A DNA stretch of 43,925 bases from Bacillota bacterium. GTDB lineage: Bacteria > Bacillota > Clostridia > DSM-8532. The stretch is taken from NCBI GenBank assembly GCA_022702935.2, contig JAKIML020000107.1, forward strand, positions 1 to 43,925, given 5' to 3'. Of the stretch, positions 7,610-16,125 are shown in pieces. Both the position numbers and the translations under genes were made by a program. Below the pieces are notes generated by a model. It worked only from the letters and a program-made list of their open reading frames with translations. It was not told the origin of the DNA and did no database searches. Every line of letters starts with the position of its first letter. Position 1 is the first letter of the stretch.

Positions 7610-8624
7610 ATGAAAAGAAAAGCTCTAATTCTTTCAGTCGTTTTGCTTCTAGCCATTTCCCTTCTTGTTCCCTCAGCCTTGGCTGCTAGCGATGCTGATG
7701 CTGAGCTGGCGGCCTTACACTGTCACCCGCGCCCAGTTTATCAAGATGTTCATCCGGGCCATGTATGGAGCCGATGCCGTTAACATTATGATGGCTGACT
7801 TTAACCACTGGGCAGCCAAGGATATCAAAAAGGCTGAGGAGATAGGGGTTTTAGCCACCAGAGAGTATTACATAAACAATATTGACCAGCCCATCACCCG
7901 GGCTGAAATGGCAAAGCTTATTATAAGGGCATATATGCAGTTTGAGCCTGATCCCTTCCCCTATGAGGAAAGCAAGGTCTTTTCTTCTGTTATTAAGGAC
8001 TATCATCAAATTCCTGCAGAGTATCAGCCCTCGGTACTGATGACCTATGCAACAGGTATTATCACCGGCTATCCCGATGGCCGGTTTGGGGGAAACGATA
8101 CTGCTACCAGAGCCCAGGCTGCCGCTTTTATCATCCGCTATCTGGACAAGAATGAAAGAATCAAGGTTGAGAAGCCCACCGCAGGCTCAGGTACAGGAAC
8201 CGGCAAGCGTGAGGCCACCATCCTTCGTTGGGACGACCCCTATAGACCTGTCCCCCAGGAAGGAGATATCTTCATCAAGCCCGACGGGACCGAGGTAGTT
8301 CTCAAAATTGGCCCGGCAGGAGTATTGGGGGAAAACCAGAACTGTGATATCTGGGGAGGAATGGCTTATCCAAGTGGTAATGTGTTAAAGGAGGGAATGT
8401 TAGGGATACCTCAGTGGGGGCATCTTGGCGAAACCTATCTCATTGACGATTATGGGGAGGGCCATTTTTGGGAGGAATGGAAGATGATAATGAAATATTA
8501 TGGTAATAAGGCTTATGAAGATGTTAAGAACCCCAAAGAAGGACAAACCTATGGAAAGTGGCTCATATATATGTATGGTCAATGGTGCTGGATTGGTCCA
8601 ATAAATCTTGCGAGGTTTTCATAA
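7610..8624 (+). pseudogene. S-layer-homology (SLH) domain surface protein, frameshifted after the signal peptide
   Basis: AAGGAGAG and the ATG at 7610 start a clear signal peptide (MKRKALILSVVLLLAISLL, cleavage near SALAAS). That frame soon ends at a TAA at 7781-7783. The mature protein continues in the +1 frame from about 7710, where SLH motifs appear at once (TVTRAQFIKMFIRAMYG, then ITRAEMAKLIIRAY and GIITGYPDGRFGGNDTATRAQAAAFIIRY). One extra base, or two missing ones, between about 7690 and 7720 separates the two halves. The three SLH units would bind secondary cell-wall polymer. A Gly/Thr linker and an unrecognised C-terminal domain rich in Trp/Tyr (LIDDYGEGHFWEEW) follow. It may be a true pseudogene or a sequencing error. 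A partial second copy of the C-terminal domain lies at 9980-10157. Confidence 0.75.
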
Positions 8625-8805: not shown

Positions 8806-9800
8806 ATAATTTTGCAATGTATAAAAGAAAGTGTAAACTGTTCGGGATATTAATCATTCTTTTAGCCTTGACTTCATGCATAAATAATAAGGATGCGTTT
8901 CAAGAAAATCTGTTAGAAAATAATATGGGAAGCATTGAGGGCAATATTTTTGGTTCTATTTTAAGGCATGAGGACTGGTATTTTTACACAAATATTCAGG
9001 ACAATAGTAGTCTCTATAAAATAAAAGCAGATGGTTCGAAGAGAAAAAAACTAAGCTACGGTCAAACCAATATAATTGGTATCTATGATAATTGGGTTCT
9101 ATATATCGATTACTCTGACAGGGGCACACTTTATAGAATTACCACGGATGGTAAAGATGAAGCAAGAGTTGTCAATGAAAGAATTCTGAAAGCAAAAATT
9201 GTTGGAGAATGGGTCTATTATATTGGTTTTGTCGATAATAGTATCTACAATATCTGCAAAATAAAAGTCGATGGTTCGAATAAAACAGTTCTCGTAGAGG
9301 ACTGTGCAGGCGAAATGATTGTGGATGGGGATTGGATATACTATACCCATGTTTTCGGTTTTCATTTATACAAAGTAAAAACTGACGGTACTGAGATTTA
9401 TAAACTTAATAATACTCCCACTAAGAAGATTAGCCTTGATGGGGACTGGATATACTTTATTGAAAGTCTAGGAAGTAATAGATTATACAGAATCAGAACC
9501 GATGGAACAGATAAGGAAAAGATAACTGAGGATGAGTCAATCGACCTTACTGCTAAGGATGGATGGATCTACTACCATGTTACTGGGCCTGGGCCATATG
9601 GAACAAAACTATATCGGGCAAGGATAGATGGCTCAGAAAAAACAAAGATATTTAATGGAGGATTAGGCGACGTTATTGTTGATGGGGAATGGTTGTATTT
9701 TTGTGTAGACCCTCGAATAATTGGAGGAGAAGCTATCGGAAGAATTAAAATAGATGGGACTAGTGAAGAAGTGATTCCAGTAAACTACTTTAGCCGATGA
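8802..9800 (+). CDS. DUF5050-type lipoprotein with beta-propeller-like repeats
   Basis: 332 residues. The signal peptide ends in the lipobox LTSC, so the protein is membrane-anchored outside the cell. The rest is a chain of roughly 40-45-residue repeats with the pattern GDWIYY ... LYKVKTDGT, seen at least six times. This is the hallmark of DUF5050, a family predicted to form a beta-propeller. The start is uncertain: a GTG at 8802, or an ATG at 8817 that gives a more normal signal peptide. Base composition is clearly AT-richer than the core genes on either side, which suggests acquisition by transfer. The binding partner is unknown. Confidence 0.75.
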   Translation: MNNFAMYKRKCKLFGILIILLALTSCINNKDAFQENLLENNMGSIEGNIFGSILRHEDWYFYTNIQDNSSLYKIKADGSKRKKLSYGQTNIIGIYDNWVLYIDYSDRGTLYRITTDGKDEARVVNERILKAKIVGEWVYYIGFVDNSIYNICKIKVDGSNKTVLVEDCAGEMIVDGDWIYYTHVFGFHLYKVKTDGTEIYKLNNTPTKKISLDGDWIYFIESLGSNRLYRIRTDGTDKEKITEDESIDLTAKDGWIYYHVTGPGPYGTKLYRARIDGSEKTKIFNGGLGDVIVDGEWLYFCVDPRIIGGEAIGRIKIDGTSEEVIPVNYFSR

Positions 9801-9979
9801 CAAAAGCACAAGTATAATTCACTAGAGCTTTGGTAATTGAGCACGATAGCAATGATTTTTCACTGATTATTACTGATTTATGAGGGTTTGATCTGAATTA
9901 CTACTTGCATATAAGATAACAATAACTGCTGCTTCCGGCGGCTATGGGAATCCATAACCGCTTTATTACAAGACTCTCA

Positions 9980-10157
9980 TGTTATTGTTCTAAAGGAGGG
10001 TAAGCTTGGTATAGCTGCCTGGGGTCATCTTGGAGAAACCTACCTCATAGACGATTATGGAGAGGGCCATTTCTGGGAGGAATGGAAGATGATCGTAAAA
10101 TATTAAGGTAATAAAGCCCGTGAAGAAGTCAAGAACCCCAAAGAAGGCCAAACCTAA
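9980..10157 (+). pseudogene. Truncated, broken copy of the SLH gene's C-terminal domain
   Basis: The reading frame from 10005 (LGIAAWGHLGETYLIDDYGE and on) is nearly identical to the end of the SLH protein encoded around 8400-8555. It has a TAA at 10104-10106 where the long copy has TAT (Tyr), and it stops at 10155-10157. DNA similarity begins near 9980 (TAAAGGAGGG). It has no start and cannot make a product. It is a duplication remnant that marks past recombination in this patch. Confidence 0.8.
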
Positions 10158-10165
10158 GAGTTACA

Positions 10166-10199
10166 AAAGGTCGTGAGTATTTATCCTACCACGACCTTT
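10166..10199. terminator. Hairpin after the SLH remnant
   Basis: AAAGGTCGTG (10166-10175) pairs with CACGACCTTT (10190-10199) across a 14-base loop. There is no long T run, so termination efficiency is uncertain. It separates the accessory patch from the hyd operon promoter. Confidence 0.5.
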
Positions 10200-10221
10200 A
10201 TATATTTGATGAAAGTAACCA

Positions 10222-10250
10222 TTGTTTTCCCGGCAGGACTATGTTATAAT
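10222..10250 (+). promoter_or_regulatory. Sigma-A promoter of the hyd maturation operon
   Basis: TTGTTT at 10222-10227, a 17-base spacer and a perfect TATAAT at 10245-10250. The start point would be near 10257, about 200 bases before the first start codon. Confidence 0.75.
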
Positions 10251-10256
10251 ATTAAC

Positions 10257-10420
10257 AAACAATCCATATGGGGTGCGTCGCGAGGCCAAAGGGTCCTTTC
10301 GACAAACCAAGGCTTTTTTCCAACCAATCGTACTGAATGCACGAGGGTTCGTCCCGAGTGAGAAGGCGAGAGAATAGTGGGTTTACTATCCTTGTGCCTG
10401 TTCGGTACAAGGATTTTTTG
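10257..10420 (+). promoter_or_regulatory. Structured leader RNA with terminator (candidate riboswitch or attenuator)
   Basis: About 165 bases lie between the promoter and a terminator, with no convincing gene inside. Helices seen by eye: GTGCGT near 10271 with ATGCAC near 10339, enclosing a GTCG/CGAC stem with AAAG/CTTT stacked on it. GAGGCC near 10279 can also pair with GGCTTT near 10310. ATAGT (10373-10377) can pair with ACTAT (10385-10389), which overlaps the first bases of the terminator's 5' arm and could compete with it. The layout (promoter, compact fold, terminator, ribosome site, operon) is that of a transcription-terminating riboswitch. I checked it by memory against common classes (TPP, FMN, cobalamin, SAM-I, lysine, THF, c-di-GMP-I, ZTP, Moco, M-box, glycine, guanidine, T-box) and saw no match. 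Confidence 0.6.
10388..10419 (+). terminator. Factor-independent terminator in the hyd leader
   Basis: ATCCTTGTGCC (10388-10398) pairs with GGTACAAGGAT (10404-10414) over a TGTTC loop, followed by six T residues (10414-10419). It sits about 37 bases before the first start codon, so it must be read through or blocked for the operon to be expressed. Confidence 0.88.
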
Positions 10421-10455
10421 TTATGCAAAAACCGATGAGGAAAGGGAGACATGCC

Positions 10456-10701
10456 ATGGAAAACCGTATAGCTCTGATGGGCATTATTGTTGAAAACCCT
10501 GCATCCGTTGAAAGGCTTAATGCCATTCTTCATGATTATGCGGAGTACATTGTGGGAAGGATGGGGATTCCCTACCACAAGCGTAAGATATCCATCATCA
10601 GTGTGGTTCTTGATGCACCGCAGGATGTGATAAGTGCCCTGTCGGGCAAGCTGGGCATGCTTCCCCAGGTCAATATCAAAACGATATACTCCAAGGTTTA
10701 A
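10456..10701 (+). CDS. TM1266-type putative regulator of the iron-only hydrogenase system
   Basis: 81 residues from the ATG at 10456, chosen because AAGGGAGA lies 7 bases upstream; an earlier ATG at 10423 lacks such a site and lies just after the terminator. The sequence (MENRIALMGIIVENPASVER, HKRKISIISVVLDAPQDVIS, LSGKLGMLPQVNIKTIYSK) fits the short ACT/NikR-C-like family annotated as iron-only hydrogenase system regulator. The name rests on gene neighbourhood and fold; no DNA-binding domain is present. It lies 27 bases before hydE in the same operon. Confidence 0.85.
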   Translation: MENRIALMGIIVENPASVERLNAILHDYAEYIVGRMGIPYHKRKISIISVVLDAPQDVISALSGKLGMLPQVNIKTIYSKV

Positions 10702-10728
10702 TTTACAGCATTCAATAAGGAGGCGCCT

Positions 10729-11799
10729 ATGTTTCAGCTCATTGACAAGCTAGAAAGGGATAGAACCTTAACGAAAGAAGAGTTTATTGAACTTCTCAAC
10801 CATATCACCCACGAGACCAGCGAATACCTCTTTGAAAAGGCAAGGAGAATTTCAAAGAAGTATTTTGGAAGCCGCATCTATACCCGAGGTCTGGTGGAGT
10901 TCACCAACTTCTGCAAGAATGACTGCTATTACTGCGGTATACGCTGCAGCAACAAGAACGCCGAGCGCTATCGACTGTCCAAAGAAGAGATCATGAGCTG
11001 CTGCGAGCAGGGGTATAAGCTGGGGTTCCGCACCTTTGTACTGCAGGGCGGAGAGGATCCTAAGTATTCGGTGGAGGCCTTTGCCGATATTATACGCACC
11101 ATTCGCACCAATTACCCTGACTGTGCCATCACCCTGTCCATTGGTGAACGGGATTATGATGAATATAAGACCTATTTCGAGGCAGGCGCCAACCGTTTTC
11201 TGCTTCGTCATGAAACGGCCAATGAGGAGCATTACAAAAAGCTCCACCCCCAAAACCTGAGCCTTGCCCATCGCAAGCAGTGCTTAAGAGATTTAAAGAA
11301 AATAGGCTACCAGGTGGGAACGGGGTTCATGGTGGGCTCTCCTTACCAGACGGTGGAATGCATTGCCGAAGATCTGCTGTTTATCCGGGAACTGGAGCCC
11401 CAGATGGTGGGGATTGGCCCATTTATCAGTCACCAGGATACCCCCTTTAAAGATGAACCCTCGGGAACCCTGGAGCTGACCCTCTTTCTCATTGGAGTTT
11501 TAAGGCTCATGCTGCCCAACGGCCTCATACCCGCCACAACCGCCTTGGGGACCATCCATAAAAACGGACGGGAGCTGGGTATACTGGCCGGGGCCAATGT
11601 AGTCATGCCCAATCTGTCACCGGTGAAGGTCAGAAAGAAGTATTCTCTCTACGACAATAAGATTTGTACGGGTGAGGAGGCTGCCGAGTGCCGGATGTGT
11701 CTTCAGAACCGTGTTCAGAAGATTGGTTATGAGCTTGTCGTAGACAGGGGGGATTTTAAACCTTTGGATAGCATGGAGCCCTTGGAACAATTAGCTTAG
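10729..11799 (+). CDS. hydE: [FeFe] hydrogenase H-cluster radical SAM maturase HydE
   Basis: 356 residues. The radical SAM motif FCKNDCYYCG (Cys62, Cys66, Cys69) is intact. A C-terminal CX7CX2C motif (CTGEEAAECRMC), which carries the optional second cluster in Thermotoga HydE, is also present. HydE takes part in building the dithiolate-bridged diiron subcluster of the H-cluster. AGGAGGC precedes the ATG at 10729. hydG follows after 13 bases. hydF and the hydrogenase catalytic subunit must be encoded elsewhere. Confidence 0.96.
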   Translation: MFQLIDKLERDRTLTKEEFIELLNHITHETSEYLFEKARRISKKYFGSRIYTRGLVEFTNFCKNDCYYCGIRCSNKNAERYRLSKEEIMSCCEQGYKLGFRTFVLQGGEDPKYSVEAFADIIRTIRTNYPDCAITLSIGERDYDEYKTYFEAGANRFLLRHETANEEHYKKLHPQNLSLAHRKQCLRDLKKIGYQVGTGFMVGSPYQTVECIAEDLLFIRELEPQMVGIGPFISHQDTPFKDEPSGTLELTLFLIGVLRLMLPNGLIPATTALGTIHKNGRELGILAGANVVMPNLSPVKVRKKYSLYDNKICTGEEAAECRMCLQNRVQKIGYELVVDRGDFKPLDSMEPLEQLA

Positions 11800-11812: not shown

Positions 11813-13231
11813 ATGTATAACAAATTATCCCCATACGCCACCGATTTTATCGATGACGCCGAAATCCTGGATACCCTGGATTATGCGCAGAAGAATAAAA
11901 GCAACCGCGCGCTGATTGAAAGCATTCTGGAAAAAGCCCGCACTATGAAGGGATTGAATCATCGGGAAGCGGCCGTGCTTCTGGACTGTGAGATAGAAGA
12001 TCTCAACGAGAAGATGTATGCTCTGGCTCAGGAAATCAAGCAGAAGCTTTACGGCAACCGTATTGTTATGTTTGCGCCCCTGTATTTGTCCAACTACTGT
12101 GTCAATGGATGCGTCTACTGTCCCTATCACCATTCCAATAAGCACATCACCCGCAAAAAGCTCACTCAGGAGGAGATCCGCCGTGAGGTTATAGTCCTCC
12201 AGGACATGGGACATAAGCGCCTGGCACTGGAAACCGGGGAAGACCCCATCAATAACCCCATTGAGTATGTCCTTGAAAGTATTAATACCATCTATAGCAT
12301 CAAGCATAAGAACGGGGCCATTCGCCGGGTTAATGTGAATATTGCGGCCACCACCGTTGATAACTACCGAAAGCTGAAGGAGGCCGGCATCGGTACCTAT
12401 ATCCTGTTCCAGGAAACCTATCATAAGCCCACCTATGAGGCCTTGCATCCCACAGGGCCCAAGCATAATTACGCCTACCATACCGAAGCCATGGACAGGG
12501 CCATGGATGGCGGCATTGACGATGTAGGCCTGGGTGTTCTTTTCGGCCTTAATCTCTACCGCTATGACTTTGTTGGCCTCTTAATGCACGCCGAGCACCT
12601 GGAAGCCTACAAGGGCGTGGGACCCCATACCATCAGCGTTCCCAGAATCCGCCCTGCTGATGATATCAACCCTGATGATTTTACCAATGCCATTTCCGAT
12701 GACATCTTTGCCAAGATAGTGGCCGTTATCCGCCTGGCTGTTCCCTATACGGGCATGATCGTATCCACCAGAGAATCGCCCAGAACCCGTGAGCGGGTGC
12801 TTAAGCTGGGCGTATCCCAGATCAGCGGCGGTTCCAGAACCAGTGTGGGCGGCTATGTGGAGCCCGAGTCCGAGGATGAAAATTCAGCCCAGTTCGATGT
12901 CAGTGACAGGCGCACCCTGGATGAGGTTGTTCATTGGCTGCTGAAGCTTGGCTACATACCCAGCTTCTGTACGGCCTGCTATCGCGAGGGACGTACCGGG
13001 GACAGATTTATGCAGCTTGTGAAAGCGGGGCAGATAGCCAACTGCTGCCAGCCCAACGCCTTGATGACCTTGAAGGAGTATCTGGAGGACTATGCCTCTC
13101 CTGAAACCAGGCAAATGGGTGAGCACGTCATTTTAAATGAGCTCAATCACATTCCCAACGAGAAGGTGCGCAATCTGGCCACCCAATACATCCTTGAAAT
13201 GAAGGAAGGAAAGCGGGATTTTCGCTTTTAG
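11813..13231 (+). CDS. hydG: [FeFe] hydrogenase H-cluster radical SAM maturase HydG (tyrosine lyase)
   Basis: 472 residues, normal length. The N-terminal radical SAM motif is YCVNGCVYC (Cys96, Cys100, Cys103). The C-terminal second cluster motif FCTACYREGR followed about 20 residues later by NCC is present. HydG cleaves tyrosine to make the CO and cyanide ligands of the H-cluster. Strong sequence throughout (NVNIAATTVDNYRKLKEAGI, SQISGGSRTSVGGY) leaves little doubt. AGGAGGCGAC lies before the ATG. A good terminator closes the operon at 13343-13369. Confidence 0.97.
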   Translation: MYNKLSPYATDFIDDAEILDTLDYAQKNKSNRALIESILEKARTMKGLNHREAAVLLDCEIEDLNEKMYALAQEIKQKLYGNRIVMFAPLYLSNYCVNGCVYCPYHHSNKHITRKKLTQEEIRREVIVLQDMGHKRLALETGEDPINNPIEYVLESINTIYSIKHKNGAIRRVNVNIAATTVDNYRKLKEAGIGTYILFQETYHKPTYEALHPTGPKHNYAYHTEAMDRAMDGGIDDVGLGVLFGLNLYRYDFVGLLMHAEHLEAYKGVGPHTISVPRIRPADDINPDDFTNAISDDIFAKIVAVIRLAVPYTGMIVSTRESPRTRERVLKLGVSQISGGSRTSVGGYVEPESEDENSAQFDVSDRRTLDEVVHWLLKLGYIPSFCTACYREGRTGDRFMQLVKAGQIANCCQPNALMTLKEYLEDYASPETRQMGEHVILNELNHIPNEKVRNLATQYILEMKEGKRDFRF

Positions 13232-13485: not shown

Positions 13486-16125
13486 ATGCGAAAAATCGGA
13501 CTTAATGAATTGAGAGAAATGTATCTGTCTTTTTTTGAGAGCAAGGGACACCTTCGCCTGCCCAGCTTTTCACTGGTTCCTCAGAATGACCCCAGTATCC
13601 TTCTTATCAACGCGGGCATGACGCCCTTGAAGCCATATTTTACAGGTAAGGAGACTCCGCCCAGAAAGCGTGTGACCACGTGTCAGAAGTGCATTCGCAC
13701 GCCCGATATTGAGAATGTGGGTAAAACCTCCCGCCACGGCACCTTCTTTGAGATGCTTGGCAATTTCTCCTTCGGCGATTATTTCAAGAAGGAGGCCATT
13801 CCGTGGGCATGGGAATTCATGACCAAGGTTCTTGAGATCCCCGAAGAACTTTTATATGTTTCTGTTTATGAGCACGATGATGAAGCCTATGATATATGGC
13901 ATAAGGATGTGGGGCTGCCTCCGGAGAAAATCTTCCGCATGGGCAAGGCCGATAATTTCTGGGAGCATGGAACAGGCCCCTGCGGCCCCTGCTCGGAAAT
14001 CTATTTTGACCGGGGCCCCGACAAGGGCTGCGGCAAGCCCGACTGTACTGTAGGCTGTGATTGTGACCGCTTCATTGAGGTCTGGAATAATGTTTTTACC
14101 CAGTTTGATCGCCAGGCTGACGGCACCTATCTGGAGCTGGCCAGCAAGAACATTGACACGGGTATGGGCTTAGAGCGTCTGGCCTGCGTGATGCAGGGTG
14201 TGGACAGCATCTTTGAAGTGGACTCCATCCGCGCTATATTGGACCATGTCTGCCGCATCGCCAATGTTTCCTACGGTAAGGAATACAAGAGTGATGTCTC
14301 CATCCGCGTTATCACCGACCATTCCCGCAGCGTGACCATGATGGTTTCCGATGGTATTCTGCCCTCCAACGAAGGCAGGGGCTATGTGCTGCGCAGACTC
14401 TTAAGAAGAGCTGCCCGTCATGGCAGACTGTTGGGTATCAACAGAACCTTCCTGGCAGAGATTGTCGATACGGTTATAGCCTGCTCGGGCGGCGCCTATC
14501 CTCACCTTGTCGAGAAGCAGGACTATATCAAGAAAGTTATCAGCCTTGAGGAAGAACGCTTCTATGCCACCATTGATCAGGGCATGATTATTCTTGAGGA
14601 CTATATGAAGCAGGTGCGCGAGAATGGCACCAATATGCTGACCGGCGAAATGGTCTTCAAGCTTCATGACACCTATGGCTTCCCCCTGGATTTAACCCGG
14701 GAGATTGCCAATGAGAACAACCTGACCCTGGACGAAGAAGGCTTCCATAATGAGATGAAGGCCCAGAAGAACAAGGCCAGAGAAGCCCGAAAGAGCAAGG
14801 AAGGCTCTGCCTGGGAAAAGGATCTCTTTGCCAATACCGACAAATCAGTGACCACACGTTTCTTAGGCTATACCCAGTATAGCTGTGAAGGAACGGTGCA
14901 ATATATCGTTTTGGATGACGAGCTCTCCGAGAGCGCTCAGCAGGATGATGAAATAACCGTAGTGCTGGATGCCACCACCTTCTATGCCGAAAGCGGCGGA
15001 CAGGTGGGGGATACGGGTACCTTGTCCAATGCCAACTTTGCCATGGAGGTTACCGGCTGCAGAAAAACCGCTGACGGCAAGTATCTCCATACCGGTAAAG
15101 TGGTTCGCGGCAGCGTTCAGGTGGGCGATAAGGTAACAGCCGCCATTGATATTGAAAAGCGCAAGGCAACGGCCCGGAACCATACGGCCACACACCTGCT
15201 CCATCAGGCTCTGAAGCATGTTTTAGGCGACCATGTTAATCAGGCCGGTTCCTTGGTAACCCCTGAAAGACTGCGCTTTGACTTTACCCATTTCTCAGCC
15301 ATTACACCGGAGCAGCTTGAGGCTATTGAGAACGAGGTCAACAGCAAGATTCTGGAGAACCTTGCGGTGGATATCCGTGAAATGCCCATTGACGAAGCCA
15401 AAAAGCTTGGTGCCATGGCCCTGTTCGGTGAGAAATACGGCGACACGGTACGGGTTGTTTCGGCTGGCGATTACAGCCGGGAGCTTTGCGGCGGTACCCA
15501 TCTGCATGCCACCGGTGAGGCCGGTTTGATAAAGATCTTAAGCGAAAGCGGTATTTCCGCTGGCGTCAGAAGAATTGAAGCCCTGACTGGCTTTAATGCC
15601 CTGAACTTCTATAAGAACAGGGATGCCCTTCTTAAAACAGCCGCCGATGCGGCCAAGGTCTCCACTGAGGACATTGTCAGAAAGATTGAGGGGCTCCATG
15701 ATGAATTGAAGAGCACCAGAAAAGAGCTTGAAGAGGCTCGGGCCAAACTGGTCAGCAGTTCTACCGACAGCCTTGTCAATGAGGCCGAATCGGTCAAGGG
15801 TATGAAGATCGTAGCGGCCAAGCTGGAAAATCTGGATATGAATGCCCTGAGAAATGCTTCCGACACCATTAAGAATAAACTAGGCTCGGGCGTGGTAATA
15901 CTGGTTTCCGGTAAGGACGATAAGGTGAATCTGATTGTATCGGCCACCAAGGATGCTGTAACAGCCGGAATCCACTGCGGCCAGATTATCAAGGATGCGG
16001 CCCAGGCCTGCGGCGGTGGCGGCGGCGGTCGTCCCGATATGGCTCAGGCCGGCGGCAAGGACCCCAACGGCATGGACGAAGCACTGCGCATTGCCAAGGA
16101 AAAAGCCAAGGCCATGCTGGCATAG
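13486..16125 (+). CDS. alaS: Alanyl-tRNA synthetase
   Basis: 879 residues, full length. The class II catalytic domain is at the N-terminus (LRLPSFSLVPQNDPSILLIN). The editing domain carries the zinc ligands HTATH and, further on, CGGTH. A Gly-rich C-terminal C-Ala domain ends in the ACGGGGGGRPDMAQAGG signature. It charges tRNA-Ala and hydrolyses mischarged Ser and Gly. The ATG at 13486 follows AGAGAGGTCGGG. A 4-Cys cluster with spaced Cys residues around residue 185 (KGCGKPDCTVGCDCD) is an insertion seen in several anaerobes. It has its own promoter and a hairpin after the stop. Confidence 0.98.
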   Translation: MRKIGLNELREMYLSFFESKGHLRLPSFSLVPQNDPSILLINAGMTPLKPYFTGKETPPRKRVTTCQKCIRTPDIENVGKTSRHGTFFEMLGNFSFGDYFKKEAIPWAWEFMTKVLEIPEELLYVSVYEHDDEAYDIWHKDVGLPPEKIFRMGKADNFWEHGTGPCGPCSEIYFDRGPDKGCGKPDCTVGCDCDRFIEVWNNVFTQFDRQADGTYLELASKNIDTGMGLERLACVMQGVDSIFEVDSIRAILDHVCRIANVSYGKEYKSDVSIRVITDHSRSVTMMVSDGILPSNEGRGYVLRRLLRRAARHGRLLGINRTFLAEIVDTVIACSGGAYPHLVEKQDYIKKVISLEEERFYATIDQGMIILEDYMKQVRENGTNMLTGEMVFKLHDTYGFPLDLTREIANENNLTLDEEGFHNEMKAQKNKAREARKSKEGSAWEKDLFANTDKSVTTRFLGYTQYSCEGTVQYIVLDDELSESAQQDDEITVVLDATTFYAESGGQVGDTGTLSNANFAMEVTGCRKTADGKYLHTGKVVRGSVQVGDKVTAAIDIEKRKATARNHTATHLLHQALKHVLGDHVNQAGSLVTPERLRFDFTHFSAITPEQLEAIENEVNSKILENLAVDIREMPIDEAKKLGAMALFGEKYGDTVRVVSAGDYSRELCGGTHLHATGEAGLIKILSESGISAGVRRIEALTGFNALNFYKNRDALLKTAADAAKVSTEDIVRKIEGLHDELKSTRKELEEARAKLVSSSTDSLVNEAESVKGMKIVAAKLENLDMNALRNASDTIKNKLGSGVVILVSGKDDKVNLIVSATKDAVTAGIHCGQIIKDAAQACGGGGGGRPDMAQAGGKDPNGMDEALRIAKEKAKAMLA

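Follow-up and report, generated by a model that had tools for sequence, protein, structure and literature searches.

A conserved candidate leader RNA upstream of TM1266, [FeFe]-hydrogenase maturation and ABC importer genes

In PyrR-controlled pyr attenuators, a protein-bound hairpin blocks an antiterminator; the regulator gene comes first in its own operon, and both biosynthetic and transport operons are controlled. Dual-hairpin antitermination of the ANTAR (EutV/NasR) type relies on two like hairpins arranged in tandem before a terminator. Vitamin and cofactor riboswitches (TPP, cobalamin, Moco/Wco) guard both the biosynthesis and the import of a cofactor with one RNA. Here we compare with these systems a leader that precedes the genes for a TM1266 family protein, HydE and HydG in a 43,925-nucleotide stretch of Bacillota DNA (the window).

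The preliminary description had called for a comparison with Rfam, and no known class reaches threshold in the window or in relative loci. Positions 9900-10800 gave no match at the gathering threshold in Rfam 15 (4227 models); 20 relative loci yielded only a tRNA, as did 8 further loci at E≤1. The L10_leader model covers hairpin 2 and the terminator but was rejected, being far below threshold (20.1 bits against 44, E 0.84). Full-text literature searches gave no paper whose title or abstract opening presents this RNA or a hydE/hydG riboswitch; a 2017 survey of 224 candidate RNAs (doi 10.1093/nar/gkx699) could contain an account of it. The papers searched, among them PMC8632094, PMC11109978, PMC6429828, PMC7266159, PMC11477304, PMC9431212, PMC3543383, PMC9481103 and PMC9679718, give no description of the leader RNA, and the main texts of three genome-wide RNA surveys do not mention hydrogenase, hydE, hydG or TM1266. 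The review PMC9481103 reports tandem tungsten-cofactor riboswitches 5' of hydrogenase genes.

The leader and its neighbouring genes

The features of the locus are collected in Table 1, in which R1 and R2 are two models of the conserved hairpin, R2 representing its compact form. About 165 gene-free bases had been proposed to lie directly 5' of a regulator-hydE-hydG operon, and this was borne out: all three genes have TIGR matches, and no convincing gene was found between about 10257 and 10456, where overlapping open reading frames (e.g. 62 aa, 10173-10361) are mechanical only. The "consensus promoter" of the preliminary description stands in part, since its extended -10 element is perfect but its -35 element is poor, and on account of the latter the site was absent from the output of a consensus promoter scan.

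Table 1. Positions of the features of the leader and the genes behind it in the window
Feature	Position	Strand	Basis or remark
-35 element TTGTTT	about 10222-10227	+	poor/weak
Extended -10 promoter element TGTTATAAT	10242-10250	+	sequence; perfect -10
Candidate regulatory leader RNA	10257-10420	+	terminator, folding, pairings; conserved 5' of TM1266/hyd operons
Hairpin 1 (HP1): GGU/ACC, 2x2 loop GC/AA, GUCG/CGAC, 2x2 loop CG/UU, AGG/CCU	10272-10308	+	pairs all standard
Hairpin 2 (HP2, core): CU-GA-(AUG)-CAC-GA-GGG UUCGU CCC-GA-GUG-(A)-GA-AGG	10333-10366	+	R1 67.9 bits, E 3.6e-13, the window being one of R1's 17 training rows; equivalent positions covary in other leaders
Antiterminator, 5' strand AGGCGAGAGAAUAG	10364-10377	+	overlaps 3' base of HP2 (AAGGCG)
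Antiterminator, 3' strand CUAUCCUUGUGCCU	10386-10399	+	overlaps 5' arm of terminator
Intrinsic terminator hairpin	10388-10414	+	11-bp stem, then T run 10414-10419; -16.6 kcal/mol
TM1266 family protein; sensor fold like that of the NikR C-terminal domain; putative RNA-binding partner	10456-10701	+	PF21699; TIGR03959, 117.8 bits
hydE	10729-11799	+	TIGR03956, 601 bits, E 6.3e-181
hydG	11813-13231	+	TIGR03955, 931 bits, E 7.2e-281

Several observations concern the flanks. A hairpin at 10165-10206 (AAAGGTCGTG...CACGACCTTT) probably terminates the preceding transcription unit and was the source of a weak Rfam match to Termite-leu (E 0.85), rejected because it lies upstream of the leader. Just 5' of the leader, 9985-10110 (reading GHLGETYLIDDYGEGHFWEEWKM) retains traces of the C-terminal region of an SLH-domain protein encoded at 7665-8621 and, by eye, looks like a decayed partial duplication. 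Downstream of hydG lies alaS (13486-16125), likewise in G009 (L140:4327-4701, alaS by eye), so the order hydE-hydG-alaS is common to two genomes of the genus.

HP1 and HP2 have, by eye, the same architecture. R2 gives the HP2 of the window only 4.2 bits; this hairpin is a variant of the compact one in which the 5' side of the outer loop is longer. The two antiterminator strands form 12 pairs with 2 mismatches, a duplex stronger than in 98 of 100 shuffles. A short pairing, ATAGT/ACTAT, had been suggested to compete with the arm of the terminator; it forms the inner end of this longer antiterminator. The terminator of the preliminary description was confirmed, as a stem followed by a T run. Once transcription has reached 10403, the antiterminator state is the more stable one (-30.6 vs -19.4 kcal/mol); in the full-length leader it is the terminator state (-36.0 vs -30.6 kcal/mol). 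Given these energies, and since the antiterminator shares bases with the 3' end of the HP2 stem as well as with the arm of the terminator, holding HP2 closed should cause termination. A possible long-range pairing of GUGCGU (10273-10278) with AUGCAC (10337-10342), with matching changes by eye in L002 and L003, would compete with both HP1 and HP2.

The folding of the whole leader (-53.2 kcal/mol, z -1.84) was equalled by 10 of 200 shuffles, and 3 terminator-like sites were found on both strands of 9800-11000 compared to 1.1 expected in shuffles. Because the folding energy is modest compared to chance, the case for the leader rests on comparison. Taken alone, the z value would suit a constitutive 5' UTR of the ordinary kind, its terminator there by chance; that explanation is contradicted by the covariation, the recurrence in distant genomes and the gene context described below, and we regard it as very improbable.

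Conservation and covariation of the hairpin

A single-sequence search detected TM1266 in 99 of 148 related genomes, and a profile search detected it in 132 of 197, with 127 of the latter above the cut-off. Upstream DNA was compared at 106 of 108 TM1266 places (G063:C158, at a contig edge, and a weak second place in G052 were omitted), and at a further 80 loci with named records from 80 of 374 relatives, of which L151 and L152 were left uncounted as duplicates of G012 and G013. The recurring element consists of C-CUGA, a hairpin, GRAAGG, a linker that varies and, last, a terminator with a 5' arm complementary to the region around AAGG. In its compact form the hairpin reads CCU-GA-CAC-AA-AGA..UCU-GA-GUG-AA-AGG, its three short helices being set apart by two 2x2 loops. 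Both strands carry one pattern (CUGA-N3/4-RA-AG), and the hairpin is thus nearly two-fold symmetric. By sequence the predicted hairpin element is often tandem, both copies fitting one pattern in L009, L010, L011, L017 and L201; some leaders, e.g. L030 and L048, have by eye only one apparent hairpin.

Strict models (E≤0.01) detected the leader 5' of TM1266 at 79 of 184 loci (52/106 and 27/78), so that many TM1266 genes may be without it; 44 alignment rows from these loci were the training set of R1 and R2. Two strict matches are in records labelled Alphaproteobacteria (L163, L221), and other metagenome-assembled genomes labelled outside Clostridia match by eye only. Alignments A1 and A4 mixed hairpin variants, placing 3-bp and 4-bp forms out of register, and the separate alignments A2 and A5 were therefore used instead. 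In 17 window-type leaders, 91.9% of cells were paired, compared to at most 53.3% when partners were slid. In 27 compact hairpins, which were chosen with outer-helix pairing required, 97.4% of cells were paired, 7 of 10 pairs had changed on both sides, and the covariation score was 0.672 compared to 0.210 in shuffled and at most 0.176 in slid alignments. A pairing-blind test, which selects on unpaired loop letters, found the outer helix paired in 36 of 184 regions 5' of TM1266, compared to 0-2 of 184 per shuffle (six shuffles) and none of 35 control regions. The sequence is also conserved beyond the needs of pairing (CUGA, RA, AAG). Together, these results describe a structured, conserved and covarying element, a putative aptamer.

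The competing pairings were compared in the same way. A terminator was found in 59 of 62 leaders, and the antiterminator duplex outdid at least 95 of 100 shuffles in 16 of the 19 window-type leaders and in 23 of the 40 compact ones. These leaders thus combine an intrinsic terminator with a mutually exclusive, conserved antiterminator, as in an attenuator. The duplex lay outside the best 5% in 17 of the 40 compact leaders and was worse than most shuffles in L062 and L077. An earlier ungapped-helix test had given a near-null result (6.06 vs 5.45) and was superseded by this duplex-energy test with a proper terminator search.

The preliminary description had named two outcomes that would speak against it: a significant Rfam hit, and lack of conservation or covariation among related hyd operons. 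Neither occurred, as no Rfam class was matched and conservation and covariation, here measured by means other than R-scape, were both strong. For the same reasons its view of the architecture, as a riboswitch or protein-controlled attenuator, holds. The signals it put forward, iron, a redox cofactor, S-adenosylmethionine or tyrosine, are candidates. To judge from sequence comparison, the leader is a real cis-regulatory RNA built of tandem hairpins with GA-rich internal loops.

Genes behind the element and hydrogenases without maturases

A search of 391 genomes of the window's class with R1 (E≤0.02) marked 49 places, spread over 48 genomes; 45 of the places adjoin TM1266, hydE/G or ABC genes. 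The matches in G253, G115, G152 and G171 were rejected as chance, the DNA fetched around them containing no TM1266, hyd or ABC gene. In 592 kb from 178 loci fetched around TM1266, R2 gave 64 matches at E≤0.01, of which 50 precede TM1266 and the other 14 immediately precede hydG, at 11 hydE-hydG and 3 TM1266-hydG junctions. In the 12 hydG copies that were inspected, a purine-rich, Shine-Dalgarno-like stretch (e.g. AAAGGA) overlaps or follows the 3' end of the hairpin a short distance 5' of the start codon; this suggests that the same hairpin may control the translation of hydG.

The element precedes several types of operon. TM1266 is followed by hydE-hydG(-hydF) or by hydG(-hydF), and hydE-hydG also occurs without TM1266 in cis (L140, L250). 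Other operons combine TM1266 with an ABC importer (L110-L118, L120, L123, L231, L234, L184, L225) whose binding protein matches NMT1/phosphonate-binding families. In G010 (L146) ABC genes without TM1266 in cis follow a weak R1 match (E 0.012), and in L214 the ABC genes come first and TM1266 last, with a leader-like hairpin, by eye, before the binding protein. A further type encodes TM1266, a FecCD permease, an ATPase fused to a second TM1266 domain, NifH, two nitrogenase-component-1-type proteins and a Peripla_BP_2 binding protein; in L288 HydF and a lyase are encoded as well. The tie to hydrogenase maturation, as first described, therefore stands for the TM1266-hyd operons but is too narrow, since the leader also precedes TM1266-ABC operons, including those of genomes in which no HydF or HydG (or, where tested, HydE) was detected.

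An ABC ATPase with a C-terminal TM1266 domain is seen at L207:4282-5340, and related operons occur in L287-L290. These operons contain FecCD permease, NifH-like and nitrogenase-component-1-type genes, some also HydE, HydF and a lyase, and have the same leader hairpin. A weak R2 hairpin (20.9 bits, E 0.0034) lies at L289:7356-7401, at the start of a Peripla_BP_2 gene in a nitrogenase-like operon. The fusions of TM1266 with an ABC ATPase suggest ligand sensing at a transporter.

Twelve genomes have an operon of leader, TM1266 and ABC genes (G001, G002, G003, G006, G007, G016, G025, G046, G112, G397, G409, G410). HydG (E≤1e-60) and HydF (above the cut-off) were detected in none of them, nor was HydE in the 9 searched for it (all but G397, G409 and G410). 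All 12 match the Fe-hydrogenase large-subunit family, G112 weakly, and the proteins L332-L336 (from G002, G007, G046, G025 and G397) have the motifs TSCSPGW, MPCTAK and EIMACPGGC. G004 resembles these genomes, but its contig stops before any ABC gene. HydG is present in four genomes with a leader-linked ABC operon (G005, G009, G010, G372).

A strong match to the binding protein (>300 bits) was found in 40 of 197 relatives. Among 180 relatives with HydA, it was found in 20 of 58 without HydE compared to 18 of 122 with HydE (Fisher p 0.003, uncorrected for phylogeny). The other 38 genomes with HydA and without HydE had no strong match, so that import is one possibility and not a rule, and the notion of the ABC importer as a plain substitute for the maturases has partial support only. 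Synthetic [2Fe] compounds activate apo-hydrogenase spontaneously. A more specific proposal, which we consider speculative and rather unlikely, is that the RNA/TM1266 system senses an H-cluster precursor (an iron-CO-CN or [2Fe] compound) which the TM1266-linked importer takes up. If so, bacteria with [FeFe]-hydrogenase and without HydE, HydF and HydG would obtain the cluster from neighbouring cells able to produce it, with a single RNA element toggling between its synthesis and its import.

TM1266, the candidate mechanism and related systems

TM1266 is a protein of 81 residues without a DNA-binding domain. Its structure model (pLDDT 95.1) matches 2NZC with Z 16.0, and full-length and C-terminal NikR entries with Z 9.8-13.6 at 9-20% sequence identity; the best of the latter superposes it on the NikR sensor domain with 1.5 Å over 80 residues. 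The predicted fold is beta-alpha-beta-beta-alpha-beta, of ACT/NikR type. TM1266 thus has the fold of the C-terminal domain of the nickel sensor NikR in common with that protein, whereas NikR also has a ribbon-helix-helix DNA-binding domain, which TM1266 is without. A TM1266-type protein is termed a transcription factor in PMC9679718.

The link between protein and RNA was examined in 39 HydE genomes unseen by the models. At E≤0.01, R2 found the hairpin in 9 of 18 genomes with TM1266, each time next to TM1266 or hyd genes, compared to 1 of 21 (G045) without a TM1266 match above the cut-off (Fisher p 0.002, uncorrected for phylogeny; the 21 include G095, with a match below the family cut-off). 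The other 9 of the 18 had no such match. Since the models were trained on TM1266-linked leaders, this co-occurrence test is not bias-free. No R2 match at E≤0.1 was found in 35 control regions, namely the hyd-operon upstream regions of 15 genomes without TM1266 and those of 20 binding-protein genes apart from TM1266. The 20 binding-protein regions, none with a leader, comprise 12 from genomes without TM1266 above the cut-off (including G070, with a weak TM1266 match) and 8 from genomes with it; four of the 20, L298, L299, L304 and L307, are shortened by contig ends. Copies without TM1266 in cis stand before hydE-hydG (L140, L250) and before hydG (L338, L344). The last belongs to G045, a 97% complete genome with no TM1266 match. 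We know of no RNA binding by TM1266.

What comparison and computation establish is that the element is conserved, how it is structured, which pairings compete in it and among which genes it lies. A NikR-like sensor, often encoded first behind a symmetric and often tandem hairpin, would have the look of a self-regulating RNA-binding attenuator. The reading we find best, and hold with even confidence, is a PyrR-like attenuator on the GA-loop hairpin with TM1266 as its probable binder and a ligand linked to the H-cluster. The attenuator would be built on the conserved hairpin, which has two internal loops rich in GA and occurs twice in tandem in the window. In the absence of effector, HP2 would lend its 3' base to pairing with the 5' arm of the terminator, and TM1266-hydE-hydG would be read. 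With effector, HP2 would be held closed, the antiterminator blocked and the terminator folded, turning the operon off; this direction of control is a guess. The same hairpin beside the Shine-Dalgarno sequence before hydG would control translation. The effector would be TM1266, acting in trans as well, and its ligand would be connected with the H-cluster or its supply. Points that speak against this reading are the hairpin of G045, the TM1266 genes at which strict models gave no leader, the leaderless binding-protein genes of eight genomes with TM1266, the compact leaders with a weak antiterminator duplex, the label of transcription factor and the ATPase fusions.

The main rival, which we judge somewhat less probable, is a metabolite- or metal-sensing riboswitch, whose tandem GA-loop hairpins would bind a small molecule while TM1266 is merely often co-regulated. 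It would account for the conservation of CUGA, RA and AAG, for the presence of transcriptional and apparent translational platforms, and for biosynthesis and importer operons under one element, as with vitamin riboswitches; it would also fit the four copies that have no TM1266 in cis, among them the one in G045. Against it, the hairpin co-occurs with TM1266 and is absent from control regions, its core, of some 35 nt, is small and close to two-fold symmetric, as would suit a protein dimer, and no ligand is known. We leave it roughly a third of the weight, mainly on account of G045 and since TM1266 is not known to bind RNA. G045 would equally suit another factor in trans, be it some other protein that binds RNA or a mechanism that depends on temperature or on the ribosome; but TM1266 is the sole gene noticed in all operon types, and the conserved unpaired purines argue against a pure thermometer, so we think such a factor improbable.

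If the attenuator with TM1266 as binder is the right reading, TM1266, so far a "putative regulator" with a solved structure, would gain a concrete role. A widespread cis-regulatory RNA unmatched in Rfam 15 is added to a central anaerobic pathway. Maturation and importer genes under one control, together with hydrogenase genomes in which none of the three maturases was detected, give a handle on what H-cluster assembly senses and on whether its product can come from outside.

By analogy, the leader would work like a PyrR-type attenuator, and we claim membership of no named family. It has in common with the pyr attenuators the terminator, the antiterminator, the regulator-first operon and the sharing of control by biosynthesis and transport; the protein-bound hairpin is here a prediction. 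It differs in its own hairpin type (two GA loops, near two-fold symmetry, often tandem), which has no Rfam match, and in its partner, a phosphoribosyltransferase in PyrR and here, as proposed, a NikR-like sensor domain. Tandem like hairpins before a terminator are common to the leader and the ANTAR type. In contrast, the conserved nucleotides of the ANTAR type are in hexaloops and those of the leader in internal loops, leaders with a single apparent hairpin occur, and no ANTAR protein is implied. With vitamin and cofactor riboswitches the leader has in common the control of biosynthesis and importer genes and the terminator and Shine-Dalgarno platforms, whereas it fits no known aptamer model and is strongly linked to one protein family.
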